A program made the position numbers and the translations under genes. This document shows, piece after piece, positions 4,289 to 50,104 of a stretch of DNA of 64,000 nt. This stretch comes from Thermoplasmata archaeon (GTDB lineage Archaea > Thermoplasmatota > Thermoplasmata > Lutacidiplasmatales > UBA184): the NCBI GenBank assembly GCA_021817605.1, contig JAKAUN010000009.1:1-64000 (forward strand). The letters are read 5' to 3'. The notes beneath the pieces were generated by a model that saw only the letters and a program-made list of their open reading frames with translations, was not told the origin of the DNA and did not search any database. How positions within the stretch are numbered: position 1 is the first letter of the stretch; every line of letters begins with the position of its first letter.

Positions 4289-5497
4289 TCAGCCGTCGGC
4301 TCCCTTGCCGGTCCGGGGCGGGGGACGGGCCCACGTTCCGCCGACAACCCACGGCGGTTCCGGGCCGACCGGGTCGATCGCTTCCGAGCGGAAGCGCTCC
4401 ACCGCTGCATCGTCGACAACGATCCCGAGGCCGGGCCCGCCGGGGATTCGAAACTCCCCGTCCTCGAGCGCGTAGCCTCGGACGAGGGACCGCTTCCAGT
4501 CCGGCCAGCTGGCTTCGAAGCTCTCTTGGAGGAAAAAGGTGGGAAGCGTTGCGTCCATCTGGAGGGTCGCCGCGGTCTGGACCGGGCCGAAGGCGTTGTG
4601 GTAGGCAACCGGCGCGCCCCACGCTGCCGCGACGCCGGCGATCTCTCGGCCGTAGCTGAACCCACCGGAGTTGGTGATGTCCGGCTGGAGGATGTCCACG
4701 AGACCCCGTCGGAGGAAGCTGAGGAAGTCAGCGGACGTGAGCAGGCGTTCCCCGAGCGCCACGGGGGTCACGACCTCGCGCCGGAAATCTGCAAGCCCGT
4801 CGGAAAGTTCGGGGATCACCGGCTCCTCCATGAACCTCGGGGCGAACCGATCCAGGGCACGACCGGCGCGCATGGCGGCCTCGGGGAGGAAACGGCCGTG
4901 GTACTCGATGAGAAGGTCGACATCTGGTCCCACGGCATTGCGGACCGCGCCGACGCGCGCCACGGCAAGGTCGAGGCCCTGAGGTGAAAGGGTCCGGTAC
5001 TGGTCCCCGAACGGGTCGAACTTGAGCGCGCGGAAACCCTTGCGGGTGTACTCCTGGGCTCGGGCGGCGAACTCCTCCGGGGTAAGGCAGTCGGCGTACC
5101 AGCCGTTGGCGTAGGCGGTGACCTTGTCGCGCATGCGTCCGCCGAGGAGATCGCAGACCGGCACCCCGAGCTCGCGACCGAGAAGGTCGTGACAGGCAAT
5201 GTCGACCGCAGAGAGGGCGCTGGTCGCCTCCATGGAGCGCGAGCGATAGAACGAGTAGCGCTCGAACTCGCGCAACGCCTCGCGATGGGCATGCAGCTCC
5301 CGGCCCTCGTAGAACCGGGCCACCTCCCGCACGCTCTCGCGCACCGGATGGGTCATGAGGGTGGTCGGCGCCTCGCCCCAGCCCACCGCCCCGGTCTCGG
5401 TGGTCACTCGGACGAGCAGGATGGTCGATCCCCACGGCGAGGAGCTCTCACCCGCCGGCGCGGCAAGTTCGAGGGGCTCGACCGTTCGGATCTTCAT
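4289..5497 (-). CDS. Enolase-superfamily (mandelate racemase/muconate lactonizing) sugar-acid dehydratase-like protein
   Basis: The 402-residue protein has an N-terminal capping domain starting MKIRTVEPLELAAP and a TIM barrel. Metal-ligand candidates follow superfamily order: LLIEYHGRF (Glu, with His two residues later), MEEPVIPE and LGERLL, plus AYHNAFGP near the end. The acid-x-His-Gly-Arg arrangement resembles the galactonate/mannonate dehydratase subgroup, so dehydration of an aldonic acid is a reasonable guess, for example in a non-phosphorylative Entner-Doudoroff route; the substrate cannot be fixed. The start is set by an ATGA overlap with the upstream peroxiredoxin stop, which implies translational coupling. 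A longer in-frame start would run far into that gene. Confidence 0.87.
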   Translation of the reverse strand: MKIRTVEPLELAAPAGESSSPWGSTILLVRVTTETGAVGWGEAPTTLMTHPVRESVREVARFYEGRELHAHREALREFERYSFYRSRSMEATSALSAVDIACHDLLGRELGVPVCDLLGGRMRDKVTAYANGWYADCLTPEEFAARAQEYTRKGFRALKFDPFGDQYRTLSPQGLDLAVARVGAVRNAVGPDVDLLIEYHGRFLPEAAMRAGRALDRFAPRFMEEPVIPELSDGLADFRREVVTPVALGERLLTSADFLSFLRRGLVDILQPDITNSGGFSYGREIAGVAAAWGAPVAYHNAFGPVQTAATLQMDATLPTFFLQESFEASWPDWKRSLVRGYALEDGEFRIPGGPGLGIVVDDAAVERFRSEAIDPVGPEPPWVVGGTWARPPPRTGKGADG

Positions 5498-6000
5498 GGG
5501 CCGCTCTCCGGGGCCCGCGGGTCGTCGGGGGTCGCGGCGGGGGCTGGTGCCCCAACCGGCGCCTGCGGACCCCACCTCGCAACGGCCCGACGGACGTGCA
5601 CGCGGGGGAACGGGCTTCGGATGACTTCCCGAACCACCCCGTCCGCGTCGAGCAGGAAGGTGACGCGCCGTGCAAGTCCCAAGAGGCCGAGGACGTCGTA
5701 GCTACGGGCTACCGATCCGTCGTGGTCGGCGACGAGCGGGAAGGGGACCTGGCAGCGCACGGCAAATCGTGCCTGGGAGCTGGTCGTGTCCACACTCACC
5801 CCGAGGAGGGCTACTCCCGCCGCGTGCAGGGCCTCGTAGGCGCCGACAAACCCTTCCGTCTCCCGGGTGCACCCGGGACTTCCTGCCTTGGGATAGAAGA
5901 AAAGCACCAGGGGACGGCCCCTGAAGTCGTCAAGAGAGATGGGAGAACCGTCGGCCGCCGTAGCGCGGAAGGACGGTGCCACATCCCCCGCGTCGAGCAC
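5494..6000 (-). CDS. bcp: Bcp-type peroxiredoxin
   Basis: This 168-residue thioredoxin-fold peroxidase reduces hydroperoxides. Its peroxidatic Cys lies in FFYPKAGSPGCTRE, matching the PxxxTPGCT region of PrxQ/Bcp enzymes with Ser in place of Thr. A second Cys in FAVRCQVPFPL could resolve the disulfide. The C-terminal 25 residues are Pro/Ala-rich. It has no signal peptide, so it is cytosolic. The stop overlaps the start of the downstream dehydratase by four bases, and a divergent aldo-keto reductase gene lies 25 bases upstream on the same strand. Confidence 0.92.
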   Translation of the reverse strand: MLDAGDVAPSFRATAADGSPISLDDFRGRPLVLFFYPKAGSPGCTRETEGFVGAYEALHAAGVALLGVSVDTTSSQARFAVRCQVPFPLVADHDGSVARSYDVLGLLGLARRVTFLLDADGVVREVIRSPFPRVHVRRAVARWGPQAPVGAPAPAATPDDPRAPESGP

Positions 6001-7124: not shown

Positions 7125-8834
7125 ATGGCCGACCCAAACAAGGCCCGCCTCCCTCTTTCCGAGAGGTTTCGCCCCGAGCGCCTTGTGGACCTCCTGGGCA
7201 ATGGGAAGGCGCGCAACGACCTGAGGGCATGGGCCGAGCGCTGGCGTGCCGCAAGCCCCGCGAGCTTCCGGGCGGCGATCCTCATCGGCCCCCCGGGGGT
7301 CGGGAAGACCACGGCCGCCATCGCCCTCGCCCACGAGTTCGGCTGGGCCCTGGTGGAGATGAACGCCTCGGACGCACGTAACCAGGTCGCTCTCGAGCAG
7401 GTCGCGGGTCGCGCGTCCGTCTCTCAGAGCCTCGACGGGGACCCTGGCGCCCCGGGCCCGCATCGGGCCCTCATCTTGCTTGACGAGGCGGATTGCCTCT
7501 CGGGACGGGCCACCGAGGCGGCCCGTCCTCCTCCCGAGACGCTTTCCCTACGCGACTTCCTCCGGCAGCGCTACACCTCGGTCGAGGCCCTCAACAACGC
7601 CTGGAAGCTCACCTCCACGACGAGGTCACGACCGTTCGAGGACTGGCCGTCCGTGCCGCGGAGCCCGGGCTCCTACGCTTGGGCGCGGCTGGCCGAGGCC
7701 CGCCGGGACATTGAGGACTGGAGGGGGTCCGGTGCCGCTTCCGACCTCTCCGACCGGGGCGGCCTCGCAACGATCGCCCGGCTCGTCCGCTCCACGCGTC
7801 AGCCCCTCGTCCTCACGGTCAATGACGATCGGTCCCTTGCGCGGTATTCGCCTGTCTTTCGCTCGGGCGTTGCCCGGATACGCTTCTTTCCGCTCCGTGA
7901 CCTCGAGGTCTCGAGCCGCCTGGCCGTCATCGCCCGCTCTGAGGGCATACGGCTTGCTCCCGGGGTCCTCGAGGCGATCGTGGGACGCTCCCGAGGGGAC
8001 TTTCGGGCGGCACTCAACGACCTCGAGGCGATCGCCCCGCTGCCGCCGGGTCCTGCCCAGCGGGAGGCGCTCGGGGCCAGGGACCTGGCCAGCGACCTCG
8101 CCCACTTCACGGAGGAGGCGCTCTCGAGTCCACGCTACTACCGATCGGTGGAGGTCCGCGACCGCGTCGACGTCCCGCCGGACGACCTCCTGCCGTGGAT
8201 CGAGGAGAACCTCGACCACTTTTCCGTGGATGCCGGCCACCGGGACGCCGGCTTTGCCGTCCTCGCCGCCGCGGAGCTTCTGCTCGCCCGGGCCCGCCGC
8301 TGGAGGGTCTATGGGCTGTGGAGCTACGCTTCCGAGCTCCTCGCCGGCGGCGTACCCCTGGCGGTCCGGGACCGTCCCGGCCCGTCGTGGGGGGAGGCGC
8401 GCTTTCCGCGGTTCCTTGCCGAGATGGGCCGCTCCCGCGGGGTGCGCGGCGTGCGGGCAGGGCTTTCCTTGAAGGTGGGAAAGCGTCTGCATCTCTCCAA
8501 GGCGAAGGCGACGGCCCTCGTCCTTCCCTTGCTCGAGCGGCTCTTTGACGGGGTCGTGCGCGACCGCCGGGAGGCGCGAGGATGGGAGCTCGCCCGCGCG
8601 CTGGTCGAGGAGCTCGGGCTCTCGTCCGAGGAGGTCACCTTCCTTCTGGGCGGGAGCTCCGACGTCGAGCTGGTGGAGGGGCTGCTCGCAGAAGAACCGG
8701 CGGTGGAGGGACCCTCCCCGGCCGGGAACGGACCCGAGGAGCGGGAAACCGCGGGTCCGTCCCCGGAGCCGAACCCCGCGCTGCGGAAGCGCAAGGTGCA
8801 GCGGAGCCTTTCGGAGTTCGGGAGCCGGAACTAG
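7125..8834 (+). CDS. rfcL: Replication factor C large subunit with an inserted domain
   Basis: This 569-residue AAA+ clamp-loader subunit loads the PCNA ring onto DNA with RfcS. It shows an RFC box (PLSERFRPERLVDLLGN), Walker A GPPGVGKTT (about 55-63), Walker B LILLDEAD, sensor 1 TVNDD (about 231) and a helical C-terminal collar. The tail QRSLSEFGSRN resembles a PIP box. Residues about 131-205, between Walker B and sensor 1, are an insertion not seen in typical RfcL. ATG 7125 is chosen because a TATA-like gcttattcc lies about 27 bases upstream, consistent with a leaderless transcript. GTG 7089 would add 12 residues. Confidence 0.93.
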   Translation: MADPNKARLPLSERFRPERLVDLLGNGKARNDLRAWAERWRAASPASFRAAILIGPPGVGKTTAAIALAHEFGWALVEMNASDARNQVALEQVAGRASVSQSLDGDPGAPGPHRALILLDEADCLSGRATEAARPPPETLSLRDFLRQRYTSVEALNNAWKLTSTTRSRPFEDWPSVPRSPGSYAWARLAEARRDIEDWRGSGAASDLSDRGGLATIARLVRSTRQPLVLTVNDDRSLARYSPVFRSGVARIRFFPLRDLEVSSRLAVIARSEGIRLAPGVLEAIVGRSRGDFRAALNDLEAIAPLPPGPAQREALGARDLASDLAHFTEEALSSPRYYRSVEVRDRVDVPPDDLLPWIEENLDHFSVDAGHRDAGFAVLAAAELLLARARRWRVYGLWSYASELLAGGVPLAVRDRPGPSWGEARFPRFLAEMGRSRGVRGVRAGLSLKVGKRLHLSKAKATALVLPLLERLFDGVVRDRREARGWELARALVEELGLSSEEVTFLLGGSSDVELVEGLLAEEPAVEGPSPAGNGPEERETAGPSPEPNPALRKRKVQRSLSEFGSRN

Positions 8835-8880
8835 TTGGTCCAGAGCAGGGGAACAGGATCCCCACGGCCTACGGATGCCC

Positions 8881-9318
8881 CTAGCCGAGTCGCGCCCGCA
8901 CGCTGATGGCCACGTTGCCCTTAAGGGCGCTTGAGATCGGACAGCCCTCGCTCGCCGACTTCGCGGCCTGCTCGAACTCCGTGGCGGAGATGCCGGCGAC
9001 CTTGCCGACCACTTCGATCTCCATGGTCGTGACCTTCCATGCGTCCCCGACCTTGTCGAAGGTGGCGGTCGCGGTGACGTCCAGCCTCTCGGGAGGCTTC
9101 TGCATGCGTCCGAGCCCTGCCGAGAGGGCCATCGAGAAGCAGGACGCTTCCGCGGCGGCGAGGAGCTCCTCCGGGCTCGACTTGCCCCCGGGGGCCTCGG
9201 TCCGTGCCGGCCAGGAGACCCGGACCTCGCCGAGCGCCCCGGTCGTACCGTGCACGGTCCCGCTGCCGTGGGCCAGGTCTCCGAGCCAGGTTGCTTGGGC
9301 GCTGCGCTTCGCTGCCAT
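8881..9318 (-). CDS. OsmC/Ohr-family peroxidase-like protein
   Basis: This 145-residue OsmC-fold protein has the two family Cys in AEASCFSMAL and SEGCPIS, which act as the thiol pair in peroxide reduction. The N-terminal domain contains GEVRVSWPARTEAPGGKSSPEELL, close to OsmC. It has no signal peptide and is cytosolic. Organic hydroperoxide defence is the family role, and the peroxiredoxin gene at 5494 adds a second peroxide enzyme nearby. It is transcribed convergently toward rfcL. Confidence 0.92.
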   Translation of the reverse strand: MAAKRSAQATWLGDLAHGSGTVHGTTGALGEVRVSWPARTEAPGGKSSPEELLAAAEASCFSMALSAGLGRMQKPPERLDVTATATFDKVGDAWKVTTMEIEVVGKVAGISATEFEQAAKSASEGCPISSALKGNVAISVRARLG

Positions 9319-9406
9319 GGGACGCCCGAGCGCCGGCGTAATTTAACCCCGCGCGCCCTCGCCGGGTCACCGGTAGAGCTTTGCCTCCTTCGGGCCTCGG
9401 CAGGGT

Positions 9407-9895
9407 GTGGCGGTCTCGCTCGCGCGCCTCCCCCGGTATCTGGTCCTCGAGCCGGTCTCGACCGTGCGACTCGAAATAGAGCTGGTCGAACCGTCGTGCG
9501 AGATCGACGTGGAGCTCCAGAACCCCGAGCCGGGGCGGTCGTTCGTGATGCTCCTCGGAAAGCAGGGCGGGCCGCATCTGCAACGGATGCGCCTTTCGGG
9601 CAGGGCCCGGATCCTTTTCGACCCGAAGTCGCCGGGCACCTACGCCCTGATGCTGGCGAATCCCCAGAAGGAGCCCCTGGTGCTCCGTCTGCGTGCGCGC
9701 AATCTCGTGCGGCGCACCCGGAGGCCCGCCAAGGCCCCGGGACGGGGGACGAAGGCCTCCCGCTCGCCCCCCCGCTCCCGTGCTGCCTCGCTCAGCGCCT
9801 CGGGGCTCACCAGGGCGGGGGCCGGGTCACCGGCCGGCCGCGCAGGGGCGCGACGGGCCGCCCGAGGGTCCGCGGAACCCGAAACCGGCGCTTAG
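9407..9895 (+). CDS. Hypothetical protein with basic C-terminal tail
   Basis: The 162-residue product starts at GTG. Residues 10-100 look like a compact beta-rich domain (YLVLEPVSTVRLEIELVEPS, then RSFVMLLGKQGG and SPGTYALMLANP), suggesting a beta-sandwich. From about residue 103 the sequence is strongly basic and Ala/Ser/Pro-rich, as in nucleic-acid-binding tails. It has no Cys pairs or membrane segments. It lies between the divergent OsmC gene and the marC gene. I do not recognise the family. Confidence 0.6.
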   Translation: MAVSLARLPRYLVLEPVSTVRLEIELVEPSCEIDVELQNPEPGRSFVMLLGKQGGPHLQRMRLSGRARILFDPKSPGTYALMLANPQKEPLVLRLRARNLVRRTRRPAKAPGRGTKASRSPPRSRAASLSASGLTRAGAGSPAGRAGARRAARGSAEPETGA

Positions 9896-9958
9896 GTCCG
9901 CCTCCCGAAGGGTTGAAACCACCCCGCGCTCCGGGCTACCGGAGGCGGAATCGCGTCG

Positions 9959-10594
9959 ATGACGACCCTCGCAGTCTACGCGGAGATCATCGTTAGCATC
10001 TTTGCCATCGTCGATCCGCTCGGCACGCTTCCGTTCTTCGTCGCGCTCACCGACGGGTTCGAACCTGCGGACCGTCGGCTGGTCCTCCAACGGGCCGTGA
10101 TCGTGCTCGCGGCGGTGCTGACCCTGTTCGCGCTCCTGGGAAGATTTCTCTTCGCCGCCTTCGGTTTCACTCTGGGCGCCTTCGAGATCGCCGGCGGCAT
10201 CCTGCTGTTCCTCGTGGCCTACGACATGCTCCAGGGCGAGATGACCCGCACGAAGATCGGACCGCGCGACCGGGACGAGGTGGTCCACCGCCGGGACGAG
10301 GTGGCGGTCGTGCCGCTCGGGATCCCGCTCCTCGCCGGTCCCGGGGCCATCTCGACCGTGATGATCTACGAGGGGAGCGCGGGAAACGATCCGCTCCTCA
10401 TCGTCGCGACGTTCGTCGCCATCCTGATCACGGCGGCCGCTACGTTCGTGATCTTGCGCTTCGGTCAGCCGATCCTTCGGTCGATGGGCCGCGTGGGCGT
10501 CATGGCGATGACCCGGGTGCTCGGGCTCATCCTCGCCGCCCTGGGCGTCCAGTTCGTGATCAACGGCGTCGCCGCCGTTCTCCCGCACCTTTAG
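9959..10594 (+). CDS. MarC-family integral membrane protein
   Basis: This 211-residue protein has six predicted membrane helices and MarC/UPF0056 signatures: IVDPLGTLPFFVALTDG at the N terminus and PLGIPLLAGPGAISTVMI in the middle. The fourth helix region is preceded by a charged loop (EMTRTKIGPRDRDEVVHRR). A GGAGG-like site lies about 14 bases before the ATG. The family's transport role is not established; an original link to antibiotic resistance was withdrawn. The 3' end overlaps the convergent DUF1684 gene. Confidence 0.93.
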   Translation: MTTLAVYAEIIVSIFAIVDPLGTLPFFVALTDGFEPADRRLVLQRAVIVLAAVLTLFALLGRFLFAAFGFTLGAFEIAGGILLFLVAYDMLQGEMTRTKIGPRDRDEVVHRRDEVAVVPLGIPLLAGPGAISTVMIYEGSAGNDPLLIVATFVAILITAAATFVILRFGQPILRSMGRVGVMAMTRVLGLILAALGVQFVINGVAAVLPHL

Positions 10595-45343: not shown

Positions 45344-45655
45344 GCCAGGAGGTGGAGGGCAGCTGACGGTGGATCGGGTCGGCGACGACTCGCCGCTGAG
45401 GAAAGTCCCCACTCCGGGAGACACGGGGTCGGGTGGGAGCCCGACGGGCGAGAGTCCGAGCTCCGGAGCAGAAACGACACAGCCCGGCGGGACGGTGAAG
45501 GGGCCGCCCTGGAGGCTCCGCCGGGACTTGGTGAAACGGCCGACTCCCCGGGAGCAAGCCCTAAGGGACGGGAGGATGCGTCTCCCTGACCGTCGAGGAG
45601 AGCGCGCAGTCGAATGCTGCCTGAAACGGAATGGGGCTTACTACCACGACCTGGC
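45344..45655 (+). ncRNA. rnpB: RNase P RNA (archaeal type A)
   Basis: This 312-base RNA is the catalytic part of the enzyme that trims tRNA 5' ends. Conserved blocks are gaggaaagtcccc (about 45398), gagcagaaacgacacagccc and gtgaaacggccgactccccg, then gggcttac near the 3' end. Helix P1 pairs GCCAGG-AG-GTGG (45344-45355) with CCAC-GA-CCTGGC (45644-45655). P2 pairs GGCAGC (45358-45363) with GCTGCC (45616-45621). P3 is ggcga/tcgcc. The boundaries follow from P1. Confidence 0.95.
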
Positions 45656-46731: not shown

Positions 46732-48072
46732 TTAGAGACGCCGCTTCGACCTCGCTTCGTCTTCCTCGAGAACGAACGCGTCCTTCTCGCGGATCACGCC
46801 AAGGATCTTTCGGGAGTCGTCCACCACCGGGATCGCCCGGAACCGGTACTTTCGGAACATCTCCAAGACCCGGGCTCGTCCGGTCTGAGGGGAGACTGCG
46901 ACGAGGCCCTGGGTCATGATCTCCTCGAGTCGTTGCGTGGGTTCGGCTTGGAGGAGCTCGTTGATGTCGACGACTCCTCGGACATCCCGGTCCGCGTCGA
47001 CCACATAGATGTACATCGTGACAAGACACTTCGGCGCCTCGCGGCGGAACCGCGCGAACGATTCCTCCACCGTGAGCTCTCCGGGGAACTCGAGGAAGGT
47101 CCGAACCGCCAGCGTGACCGCCGGCACGTCGTGCTGCTCTACGATGGAACGGACCTTCGTCGCGATCTCACCCTTCAGCATCCCCAAGAGCTCGCGCGCG
47201 TTCTCCTCGGGGAGGATCGAGACGATATCCGCGATCTCCACGGGGGAGAGATGGGCGATGATCTGGCCCAGCCGAGTGGCCTCGGTGTCGGCGATGATCT
47301 CCCGTTGCACGCGGGGCTCGGTCGCCTCCAGAGCATGCGCCGCGGCCTTGGTGTCGAGCGCGTTGAAGAGGGTAAGCCGTTCCTCGCGGCTCAGCTCCTC
47401 GAGGACGTCGGCGGCGTCCTCCGCGGGTATCCTACCCAAGGCTTCCTTGCTCACGGTAAGTCGCACGTCCCCTGCCGTGCTCGTGAGGTCAGGACCGACG
47501 GGCTGAACGTACTTCCAGGGAATGAGCTCCTCGGCCGAACGGCCTTCGGAGACCGAGGAGGCCACCCTCCCCCAAACTCCGAGCCGGCGCCGTCGGGCCT
47601 CCTGCCCAATGACCGCGGCCACGACGAAGAGCTGGCTGCCCGCTCGAAGCATCCGAATGTCATACACCACATCGATCCCGAATCCGCGGGTGTCGAGGAT
47701 GCGCTTATCGAGAATCCGATCACGGAGGAGAAGCAGCTCTCCTAGGTCCGCGACGCCTTCGTACTCCGTTTGGGTGGGAGGATCTTTCACGACCGTCTCC
47801 GTAGCGTCCATTCGGACGACCCGGGGCCAGGGGACCTTCAAAGGCGGTCGGCCGAAAGGTCGCCGAACGAGCAGGTGGGTCACTTCCGCGTACTTCGGGT
47901 CGTCGAGGAAGACAAAGTCCTGAAGCTTCCCGAGCGTGTCGCCGGACTCCGTCCGTACCTTCCGGTCCACGAGCTCGCTGATTCGGAGATACTGGGCTTC
48001 CTCAATATCCCGGACGAGAGCTGCCGGGTGGGTCGGCCTTGCCCTTTCCCCGCCGACGTGCGCCACCGTCAT
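46732..48072 (-). CDS. Soluble PRC-barrel / MgtE-N / CBS sensor protein
   Basis: This 446-residue protein has no membrane helix. Residues about 28-100 and 105-165 look like two PRC-barrel units (ELVDRKVRTESGDTLGKLQD; KRILDTRGFGIDVVYDIRM). Residues about 205-320 are the MgtE superhelical N domain (IPAEDAADVLEELSREERL and LSPVEIADIVSILPEENARE). Two CBS domains (about 320-446) end with FRAIPVVDDSRKILGVIREKD. In MgtE channels the N and CBS parts bind Mg2+ and gate the pore. Here the pore is missing and an Nramp-related carrier gene lies upstream in the same direction, suggesting a detached metal sensor. Confidence 0.88.
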   Translation of the reverse strand: MTVAHVGGERARPTHPAALVRDIEEAQYLRISELVDRKVRTESGDTLGKLQDFVFLDDPKYAEVTHLLVRRPFGRPPLKVPWPRVVRMDATETVVKDPPTQTEYEGVADLGELLLLRDRILDKRILDTRGFGIDVVYDIRMLRAGSQLFVVAAVIGQEARRRRLGVWGRVASSVSEGRSAEELIPWKYVQPVGPDLTSTAGDVRLTVSKEALGRIPAEDAADVLEELSREERLTLFNALDTKAAAHALEATEPRVQREIIADTEATRLGQIIAHLSPVEIADIVSILPEENARELLGMLKGEIATKVRSIVEQHDVPAVTLAVRTFLEFPGELTVEESFARFRREAPKCLVTMYIYVVDADRDVRGVVDINELLQAEPTQRLEEIMTQGLVAVSPQTGRARVLEMFRKYRFRAIPVVDDSRKILGVIREKDAFVLEEDEARSKRRL

Positions 48073-48141
48073 CCTCCCCGGGTCGGGAAAAGGGATCGCT
48101 CCCGTCGGGCTACAGCACGGCGCTCCATCGTCCCTTGCCTC

Positions 48142-48315
48142 CTAGTACCCCAGCCGGGTGATGAGGGAATACAAGAGCAGACCCACCAGACTGAGAAGGT
48201 AGATGCGGAGAAGGACCAACACGACCTTGGTTCCACGGTTCAGGCGAATCCGGGGGACGGCGTACGTCCGGTTGATCTCGCGTATCTTCCCGGCCGCATT
48301 CTGTATCCAGCTCAC
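48142..48315 (-). CDS. 57-residue single-helix membrane protein
   Basis: The frame starts GTG with VSWIQNAAGKIREINRTYAV and has one membrane helix (VVLVLLRIYLLSLVGLLLYS) near the C terminus. A GGAGG site lies 10 bases upstream, inside the end of the Nramp gene. The start is 6 bases after the Nramp stop, and the sensor gene follows 69 bases later, so it is the middle gene of a three-gene unit. The basic N terminus should face the cytosol. It may be a small transporter subunit. Confidence 0.75.
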   Translation of the reverse strand: MSWIQNAAGKIREINRTYAVPRIRLNRGTKVVLVLLRIYLLSLVGLLLYSLITRLGY

Positions 48316-48321
48316 AGTTCG

Positions 48322-49623
48322 TCAGCCTCCGAAAAGATGGGGGAAGATGGTCCCGACGGCGTAGACGGTCGAGAGGGTCAGGATCACGCCCACGATGGTC
48401 CCGGCCATGACATTCTGGGCAAGCGTGTTCTTGTAGCTCCCAACCAGCTCCTCCTGATTCAGCAGCACGATCAGGAAGACCAGCGCAGCGGGCAGCAGGG
48501 TGACCGCGATGACTTGGACGAAGAGGGTGATCACACCGAGCGGTGCTCCCGGAATCAGGACGATGCTTCCCGCGATGACCATGATGCTCAAGCGGAACAC
48601 GTTGAACCACTTCGCTTGTCCCAGTCGGTCGTTGAGGGAGTGCGACCATCCGAAGACCTCGCCGACCGCCCAGGAACTTGCCAACGAGACGGAGAGCGCC
48701 CCTATGAGCCCGGCATCAAACAACCCGATGGCGAGGATGATGCCCACGTACGGGTGCAGCGGCACCAGGAGCCTCGCCGCTTGCCCGGCGGACATCAGGC
48801 TGGTGTCCCCGCCGAAGAACACCGTCGCGATGATGATGAGCGCAACGGCCGTAACGACGGTGAAGGTCGCTCCGATCGCGGTGTCCCACCGAGCGTAGGG
48901 CACGTCGCGCTTCTTGAGTCCCTTGTCGACGACGGAGCTCTGTTGAAAGAAGATCATCCAGGGCGCGATCGTGGTTCCGATCGTCGCCATGATTAGGAAG
49001 ACGACCGGGCCCCCGAGCCCTTCAGGGAAGCCCGGCACCACGCCCGTCCTAAAGATGTCGCCGACATTCGGGTGGATGAAGAAGACCACCGGAACGTAGA
49101 CCATGTTCACGGCGCAGATGGCTAGGACGATCTTCTCCCAGGTCCAGTAGCGTCCGTTGAGCAGAAGGACCATGATGAACGTGATCACGACCACCTCGGT
49201 GAACAACGGAGGGATACCGAACACGGCCATCGCCATCGTCATCCCGATGAACTCGGTCGTGATCGTGAGACAGTCGGTGAGGGTGAGGTCCGAGAGCGAA
49301 AACCATCCCCAGAACGGCCCGAACGCCTCGAATATCGCCTGAGCATGACCTCGTTTGGTCATGACCCCAAGGCGTACGGTCATTTCCTGACAGACGTACG
49401 CGACCGGCCCCAGGAGCAGGACGATCCAAACGAAACTGTACCGGTAATACGCTCCGGAAAGCATGTAGGTGGTGAGCCCACCGGCGTCGTTGTCGGCCAC
49501 CATCACGATGACACCGGGGCCTATGACCGCGGCGAGGATCGCGAGCTGCTTGCGGAACCGACGGTACCGGAAGTAGAGCCGGGAGACCGCTCCCATTCCG
49601 CCCGGGCTCGAACCTGTCTTCAT
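48322..49623 (-). CDS. Nramp-related divalent metal (possibly Mg2+) transporter
   Basis: The 433-residue carrier has 11 or so helices. In helix 1 GPGVIVMVADNDAGGLTTYM replaces the DPGN motif of Mn/Fe Nramp proteins with DNDAG. In helix 6 the MPH motif is replaced by TTIAPWMIFFQQS, so the metal-binding Met is missing. Nramp-related Mg2+ transporters also lose this Met, which favours a hard ion such as Mg2+. An MgtE-type sensor gene in the same operon supports this. Specificity is inference. Confidence 0.88.
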   Translation of the reverse strand: MKTGSSPGGMGAVSRLYFRYRRFRKQLAILAAVIGPGVIVMVADNDAGGLTTYMLSGAYYRYSFVWIVLLLGPVAYVCQEMTVRLGVMTKRGHAQAIFEAFGPFWGWFSLSDLTLTDCLTITTEFIGMTMAMAVFGIPPLFTEVVVITFIMVLLLNGRYWTWEKIVLAICAVNMVYVPVVFFIHPNVGDIFRTGVVPGFPEGLGGPVVFLIMATIGTTIAPWMIFFQQSSVVDKGLKKRDVPYARWDTAIGATFTVVTAVALIIIATVFFGGDTSLMSAGQAARLLVPLHPYVGIILAIGLFDAGLIGALSVSLASSWAVGEVFGWSHSLNDRLGQAKWFNVFRLSIMVIAGSIVLIPGAPLGVITLFVQVIAVTLLPAALVFLIVLLNQEELVGSYKNTLAQNVMAGTIVGVILTLSTVYAVGTIFPHLFGG

Positions 49624-49773
49624 GCTTCGCTCCGGGAGGAATCCTCGTGGGGCGGGCCTCGGGTGTGACGCTCCCGCGGACCCGATACGGTGCCCCGACG
49701 CAGGAATCTGGGCCTGAACGCCGACTGCGTACCCTACCCTCCAGGGGGGGATGGGGGGCCAGGGGGATGGGGA

Positions 49774-49782
49774 TTTATAAAT
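49774..49782 (+). promoter_or_regulatory. TATA box of the CsoR-like gene
   Basis: TTTATAAAT is the clearest TATA box in this part of the window, about 50-70 bases before the candidate starts of the regulator gene. Confidence 0.65.
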
Positions 49783-49828: not shown

Positions 49829-50104
49829 GTGGTATGGAGCGACGGAATGTTGGGGTCCCCCAGGGTAGACATCCGGGACCGCCTCGTCCTAGCCAAAGGG
49901 CACGTGGAGGGGATCATCAAGATGGTAGATAACGGCAAGGATGACACCCAGGTGCTTCGCCAGATCCTAGCGGTGCACGCGCAACTCGAGAAGGCCTCGG
50001 TGATGGTTCTCGAAGGGATGTTGGAGTCTTTCATGGACGCGACCAAGGCGCGTCGAAAGGAACTCCTGGTGCAGATTCGCGCCAGTCTGCGAGACCTGAC
50101 GTAG
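49829..50104 (+). CDS. CsoR/RcnR-like helical regulator lacking the usual Cys
   Basis: The 91-residue helical protein follows the CsoR/RcnR pattern: RLVLAKGHVEGIIKMVDNGK, DDTQVLRQILAVHAQLEKAS and VLEGMLESFMDATKARRKEL. The conserved Cys before VLxQ is Asp here, so it cannot be a Cu(I) or persulfide sensor of the usual type. It is divergent to the metal-transport unit and may control it. GTG 49829 or ATG 49847 are both possible starts. Confidence 0.72.
   Translation: MVWSDGMLGSPRVDIRDRLVLAKGHVEGIIKMVDNGKDDTQVLRQILAVHAQLEKASVMVLEGMLESFMDATKARRKELLVQIRASLRDLT

Follow-up and report, generated by a model that had tools for sequence, protein, structure and literature searches.

A one-helix membrane protein accompanies one clade of NRMT-type Nramp carriers alongside a detached MgtE-type cytosolic module

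The window analysed here, a stretch of 64,000 nucleotides from a Thermoplasmata archaeon, carries three genes which lie on the same strand (-) and span 2.9 kb. The first encodes an Nramp/SLC11 carrier of the NRMT type (P0001, 48322-49623, 433 aa), the second a 57-aa protein with a single helix, proposed here as a carrier subunit (P0003, 48142-48315, GTG start and TAG stop), and the third a soluble protein with PRC, MgtE_N and a CBS pair, called the sensor for short (P0002, 46732-48072, 446 aa). The initial annotation had placed this unit correctly and credited the tiny membrane protein with its own ribosome site, and a ribosome-binding-like GGAGG is indeed located at 48326-48330 (-), within the end of the carrier gene. 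The membrane helix of the small protein, at about residues 29-52 (48160-48231, -), contains an LRxYL motif and an intramembrane Arg, R37 (codon at 48205-48207, -). The true start of the sensor may be the GTG at 48066, which has a better GGAGG spacing than the start at 48072.

Divergent from the operon, at 49829-50104 (+), lies the gene of a CsoR/RcnR-type protein (Trns_repr_metal) devoid of any Cys, a homologue of which occupies the equivalent position in seven of the eight nearest loci (L020-L025 and L027); a TATA-like ATTTATAAAT is found at 49773-49782, between this gene and that of the carrier. The Cys-less protein may act as regulator of the operon. Near the unit, the archaeal RNase P RNA (RF00373, 179 bits) maps to 45347-45652 (+). 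The other genes that recur around the unit are all of generic kinds, such as ABC ATPases, response regulators and kinases.

The carrier is recognised by the Pfam Nramp profile (E 6.7e-68), and among solved structures EleNRMT (7qia, 3.6e-50) comes closest to it. Helix 1 reads DNDAGG (residues 44-49, 49477-49494, -) where canonical Nramp has DPGN, and in helix 6 the motif GTTIAPW (residues 216-222, 48958-48978, -) substitutes an Ala for the metal-binding Met, in agreement with the initial annotation, which had noted both replacements and proposed an Nramp-related carrier of the Mg2+ type. The signature which defines NRMTs, DxxG in helix 1 with TxxA/T in helix 6 (PMC8806188), is complete in the carrier, and the canonical MntH signature, DxxN (DPGN) with A/CxxM, is missing from it. 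On the carrier tree, the window carrier falls into a sister clade to the class of EleNRMT, with canonical Nramp outside, and the split of NRMT from canonical Nramp has a support of 93. An adjacent gene for an MgtE N-terminal domain, typical of NRMTs although not strictly so, is present at the window, and the nearest relatives of the carrier are mostly from Thermoplasmata MAGs. Motif, phylogeny and the riboswitches of relatives described below suggest that the carrier, a LeuT-fold NRMT, most likely imports Mg2+.

In the sensor, PRC (first barrel, residues 29-64, 47881-47988, -), MgtE_N (47140-47424, -) and CBS matches lie above the Pfam cut-offs, while a second PRC and a second CBS fall below them, so that the PRC-barrels and two CBS domains originally annotated were recovered by profile only in part. 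The second CBS is otherwise substantiated, as residues 201-440 align with the cytosolic domain of Thermus MgtE, including its N domain and both CBS, and the AlphaFold model of the sensor retrieves MgtE cytosolic domains as its best structural matches (E 5e-18). MgtE_N precedes the CBS pair (residues 318-445, 46738-47121, -), in the order expected of MgtE. The lack of a pore was borne out as well, since the sensor has no hydrophobic segment and the MgtE pore domain PF01769 is absent both from it and from the window genome. Equivalents of MgtE D95 (37/40) and D247 (40/40) are conserved across the sensor family, as are those of the ATP-site residues Y170 and F227, and the equivalent of E59 is Asp in 32 of 40 sensors and His in the window. 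The equivalents of D91, D226 and D250 are lost in the family, the plug-helix residues E258/D259 have no counterpart, and the full set of Mg2+-binding residues of MgtE sites Mg2-Mg7 is not found in the sensor. A detached, pore-less MgtE module is therefore present as annotated, but its reuse as an Mg2+ sensor is not established, given the lost ligands; Mg2+ might still be sensed through fewer sites.

The 80 relatives compared with the window were picked by closeness to its carrier, irrespective of their neighbours. Each of the 81 loci has the same order, consisting of the carrier, a one-helix protein of 51-84 aa and a PRC/MgtE_N/CBS protein, so that the co-occurrence of the three genes, and with it a small third partner in the unit, extends across archaea and bacteria. 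According to their records, the archaeal hosts belong to Thermoplasmata, Methanomicrobiales, Methanosarcina, Bathyarchaeota and Micrarchaeota, and the bacterial ones to Chloroflexi, Omnitrophota, Desulfovibrio relatives, Myxococcales, Bacteroidota and Nitrospirae, among others. The consensus of the small protein is KIxEINRKYAxPxIKMTxxVKxxLLxLRxYLxxLVxLLxYKFxT; N, Y, L, L, R and L are each kept in 80/81 of these separate sequences, R being the intramembrane Arg, and the Tyr of LRxYL in all 81. When the window gene is compared with its two closest relatives, a dN/dS of about 0.14-0.16 indicates purifying selection and, together with a homologue in place in 80/80 relatives, argues against a chance reading frame. 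The mean net charge of the N-side is +4.9 (vs +0.7), which makes an N-in topology likely. No significant Pfam, NCBIfam or PDB sequence match was obtained for 52 members, nor any PHROGs match for four, and orphan copies were found neither in 60 relatives nor in plasmids. No description of the protein was found in the literature searched; subscription journals lay mostly outside that search, and absence from the literature is unproven.

A wider sampling was centred on four loci, from Actinomycetes, Methanosarcina, Humidesulfovibrio and Chloroflexi, and covered their phyla, the phylum names in this sample being taken from the titles of the centre loci. It separated the carriers into two groups, one associated with the small protein (class I where this is a separate gene) and the other, class II, in which the sensor gene adjoins the carrier, mostly upstream, and to which EleNRMT belongs by phylogeny. 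On the carrier tree, the carriers with a small protein group together in one clade (SH-aLRT 99), whose sister is class II, and a single state change separates the two. The small protein was not found in the clade of class II and EleNRMT. A crude search beside class II carriers for a hydrophobic helix with an Arg gave hits in 2/67 cases, both of them out-of-frame ORFs that overlap the carrier gene, which is what noise would give. At L064, a class I unit that has an M-box and all three genes is directly followed by a class II carrier gene (8670-10034), and both carrier classes are found in one gene cluster.

Within its clade, the small gene can change position or form. It stands after the sensor gene in L127, L173 and L174 and upstream of the carrier in L261, and a diverged small protein was recognised in L203, L205, L210, L212, L232, L250-L253, L263 and L264. 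In many Chloroflexota and some Actinobacteriota, the helix of the small protein is fused to the C-terminus of the carrier. These fusions, about 30 carriers with open frames of at least 544 aa, consist of an 11-helix carrier to which an extra helix and, behind it, the helix of the small protein are added, as in RPKLSAPVRAAMWVLRSYLVVAVVLLIVKAVELG; the extra helix is accounted for by the N-in topology, which requires one after an odd number of helices. The spacing of Arg, Tyr and Lys in the fused helix is unchanged with respect to the separate proteins, while the EINxKY motif is lost.

A sub-branch of carriers with ENDxPSM and GATxTPWM motifs (L210, L212, L250 2328-3746, L251, L252, L253, L263 and L264) possibly has a different substrate. 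In L252/L253 it is adjoined by a DtxR/IdeR-type regulator with an FeoA domain. Tandem carriers occur in L207/L250 and L208/L251, where a fused DNDAGG carrier comes first and an ENDAPSM carrier, which has a separate small protein of its own, comes second. The ENDxPSM carriers have the small protein adjacent, and the flanks read contain no sensor gene, which indicates that the small protein is independent of the sensor. Since it is fused to carriers, present without a nearby sensor and not found in the sister clade, which does have sensors, the small protein follows the carrier rather than the sensor, an association which the initial annotation had missed. Its status as a subunit of the carrier is well supported by this comparative genomic evidence, as a prediction from gene association.

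A candidate contact site is suggested by the carrier positions which distinguish the two groups. Thirteen of the 28 positions separating the small-protein clade from class II fall in residues 71-126 (permutation p 0.0006), corresponding to helix 2, a loop and helix 3. The only acidic residue among them is D112 in helix 3 (codon at 49288-49290, -), present in 82/82 class I carriers and 29/34 other members of the clade and in 0/65 of class II. D112 and R37 are each situated about 7-8 residues into a helix which starts at the cytoplasmic side, and D112 is a plausible partner for the nearly invariant Arg of the small protein. Nine fused carriers lack the Arg, five of which also lack the Asp, and no complete sequence keeps Arg without Asp. 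Covariation of the two residues was rejected as independent statistical proof: on the carrier tree Asp was lost once, in a lineage already lacking Arg, independent pairs were not significant, and the co-loss is thus suggestive only. When the L048 carrier and small protein were modelled by AlphaFold as one chain read through the stop, residues 478-506 formed a helix (pLDDT near 88, pTM 0.78), values which speak for the helix and not for a contact between carrier and helix.

Taken together, the three genes probably constitute one system, in which a Mg2+-type NRMT would be combined with an auxiliary membrane subunit and a cytosolic Mg2+ sensor, a reading drawn from sequence comparison that we hold with good, though not full, confidence. 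Gene content and order, conservation, the natural fusions and the partition on the tree are observations, and binding, substrate and the direction of regulation are predictions. On this reading, the 57-aa protein would be an auxiliary one-helix subunit with its N-terminus inside, packed against the LeuT-fold carrier. Class-specific conservation makes helix 3 a plausible place of contact, with R37 and D112, which lie at a similar depth towards the cytoplasmic side, forming a charge pair. Its gene has stayed with one carrier clade, whether downstream of the carrier, upstream of it or after the sensor, and where Chloroflexota and Actinobacteriota have it fused to the C-terminus of the carrier, the added helix preserves the N-in topology. 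The PRC/MgtE_N/CBS protein would sense cytosolic Mg2+, and possibly an adenine nucleotide, and presumably damp uptake once enough Mg2+ is present, the role which this module has within MgtE. In its boldest form, the scheme would make a large clade of NRMT carriers feedback-controlled complexes, where a dedicated one-helix subunit, held at helix 3 by the Arg-Asp pair, gates or tunes a LeuT-fold Mg2+ carrier under a detached MgtE-type sensor, so that the gating domain of a channel would control a secondary carrier; in this full form the scheme is a working model which could well prove wrong.

Instead of a regulatory part, the small protein might serve solely in the assembly or stability of the carrier, an explanation to be taken seriously even if we would not bet on it. 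Other transport complexes are known to have small subunits that stabilise them, and a tiny protein of one helix, which travels with the carrier and can be fused to it, would fit this precedent. The nearly invariant N, Y, P, R and Y, one of them a charged residue inside the membrane, point to more than a hydrophobic brace, although they are not decisive.

The small protein could also link the sensor to the carrier, with its cytosolic EINxKYxxP holding the former and its helix relaying the signal to the latter. The class I gene does sit between those of carrier and sensor, the cytosolic N-terminal motif is nearly invariant, and some of the positions separating the carrier classes lie in the cytosolic loop that precedes helix 3. 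However, the small protein persists where no sensor gene is nearby, EINxKY is lost on fusion, and class II sensors accompany carriers which have no small protein; such a relay appears somewhat unlikely.

With regard to substrate, M-box Mg2+ riboswitches precede class I carriers in five of the 30 bacterial loci tested (L048, L057, L064, L069 and L074), which favours Mg2+ for the small-protein clade; none was found in the window region. L069 has two identical-scoring M-boxes in tandem upstream of its class I operon (4977-5201 and 5593-5817). CorA, like the MgtE pore, is absent from the window genome. Among this genome and 36 genus mates, most are without CorA, MgtE pore and NRMT alike, and the argument that the carrier is the sole Mg2+ importer was dropped, as most NRMT-less genus mates also lack CorA and the MgtE pore. 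If the unit instead transported Mn2+/Fe2+, with a sensor responding to such transition metals, this would accord with the NrmT of A. capsulatum, which has an MgtE-like gene adjacent and behaved as a Mn2+ transporter, rescuing a Mn2+ transport defect (PMC4072509), with the DtxR/IdeR-type regulator next to the ENDxPSM branch and with the divergent metal-repressor-like gene before the operon in the window lineage. Against it stand the DxxG-TxxA motif shared with the Mg2+-transporting EleNRMT, the Mg2+ riboswitches of the five class I operons and the absence of Cys from the repressor-like protein of the window, and we regard it as improbable. Finally, the notion that the small reading frame is spurious or unrelated, to which its lack of coverage by any Pfam, NCBIfam or PDB family might lend itself, has practically no standing, being already refuted by the in-place homologues, purifying selection and natural fusions.

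The central idea of the initial annotation, an MgtE-type module paired with a different transporter, was already known, as Shin et al. 2014 reported that most NrmT genes adjoin a gene homologous to the N-terminal cytosolic domain of MgtE and offered feedback regulation as a speculation (PMC4072509). The pair of carrier and sensor is thus known, and what is new in this clade is the small subunit. In the same study, Clostridium acetobutylicum carriers restored Mg2+ uptake without an MgtE-like partner (PMC4072509); together with the lack of the small protein in the EleNRMT clade, this means that neither partner is required for transport by every NRMT. The NRMT tree sampled here has two main branches, the small partner was found in one of them, and carriers of this branch expressed alone would be studied without their natural subunit. 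Moreover, the question posed by Shin et al. 2014 on the role of the MgtE-like fragment now has testable parts and named residues.

Compared with known systems, the window carrier shares fold and Pfam family with the canonical Nramp/MntH carriers of Mn2+/Fe2+ (DraNramp, ScaDMT), from which it differs in the replacement of DPGN and of the helix 6 Met. To our knowledge, canonical Nramp/MntH carriers have neither a small partner nor an MgtE-like sensor, and we know of Nramp carriers being studied only as single polypeptides. With the NrmT/NRMT branch of SLC11 (Ca_c0685; EleNRMT, 7qia; PMC4072509, PMC8806188), the window has in common DxxG-TxxA and the adjacent MgtE-like gene, and an M-box occurs in some relatives. 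The window's clade, sister to that of EleNRMT, encodes the small one-helix protein, none of which was found in the latter, and the sensor gene lies downstream of the carrier in the window, in contrast to its mostly upstream position in class II. Lastly, the cytosolic gate of the MgtE channel (2yvy, 8gpv) shares MgtE_N and the CBS pair with the sensor, in which the equivalents of D95, D247, Y170 and F227 are conserved; in contrast to MgtE, the window sensor lacks pore, plug helix and several Mg2+ ligands, and it is a separate soluble protein with added PRC-barrels.
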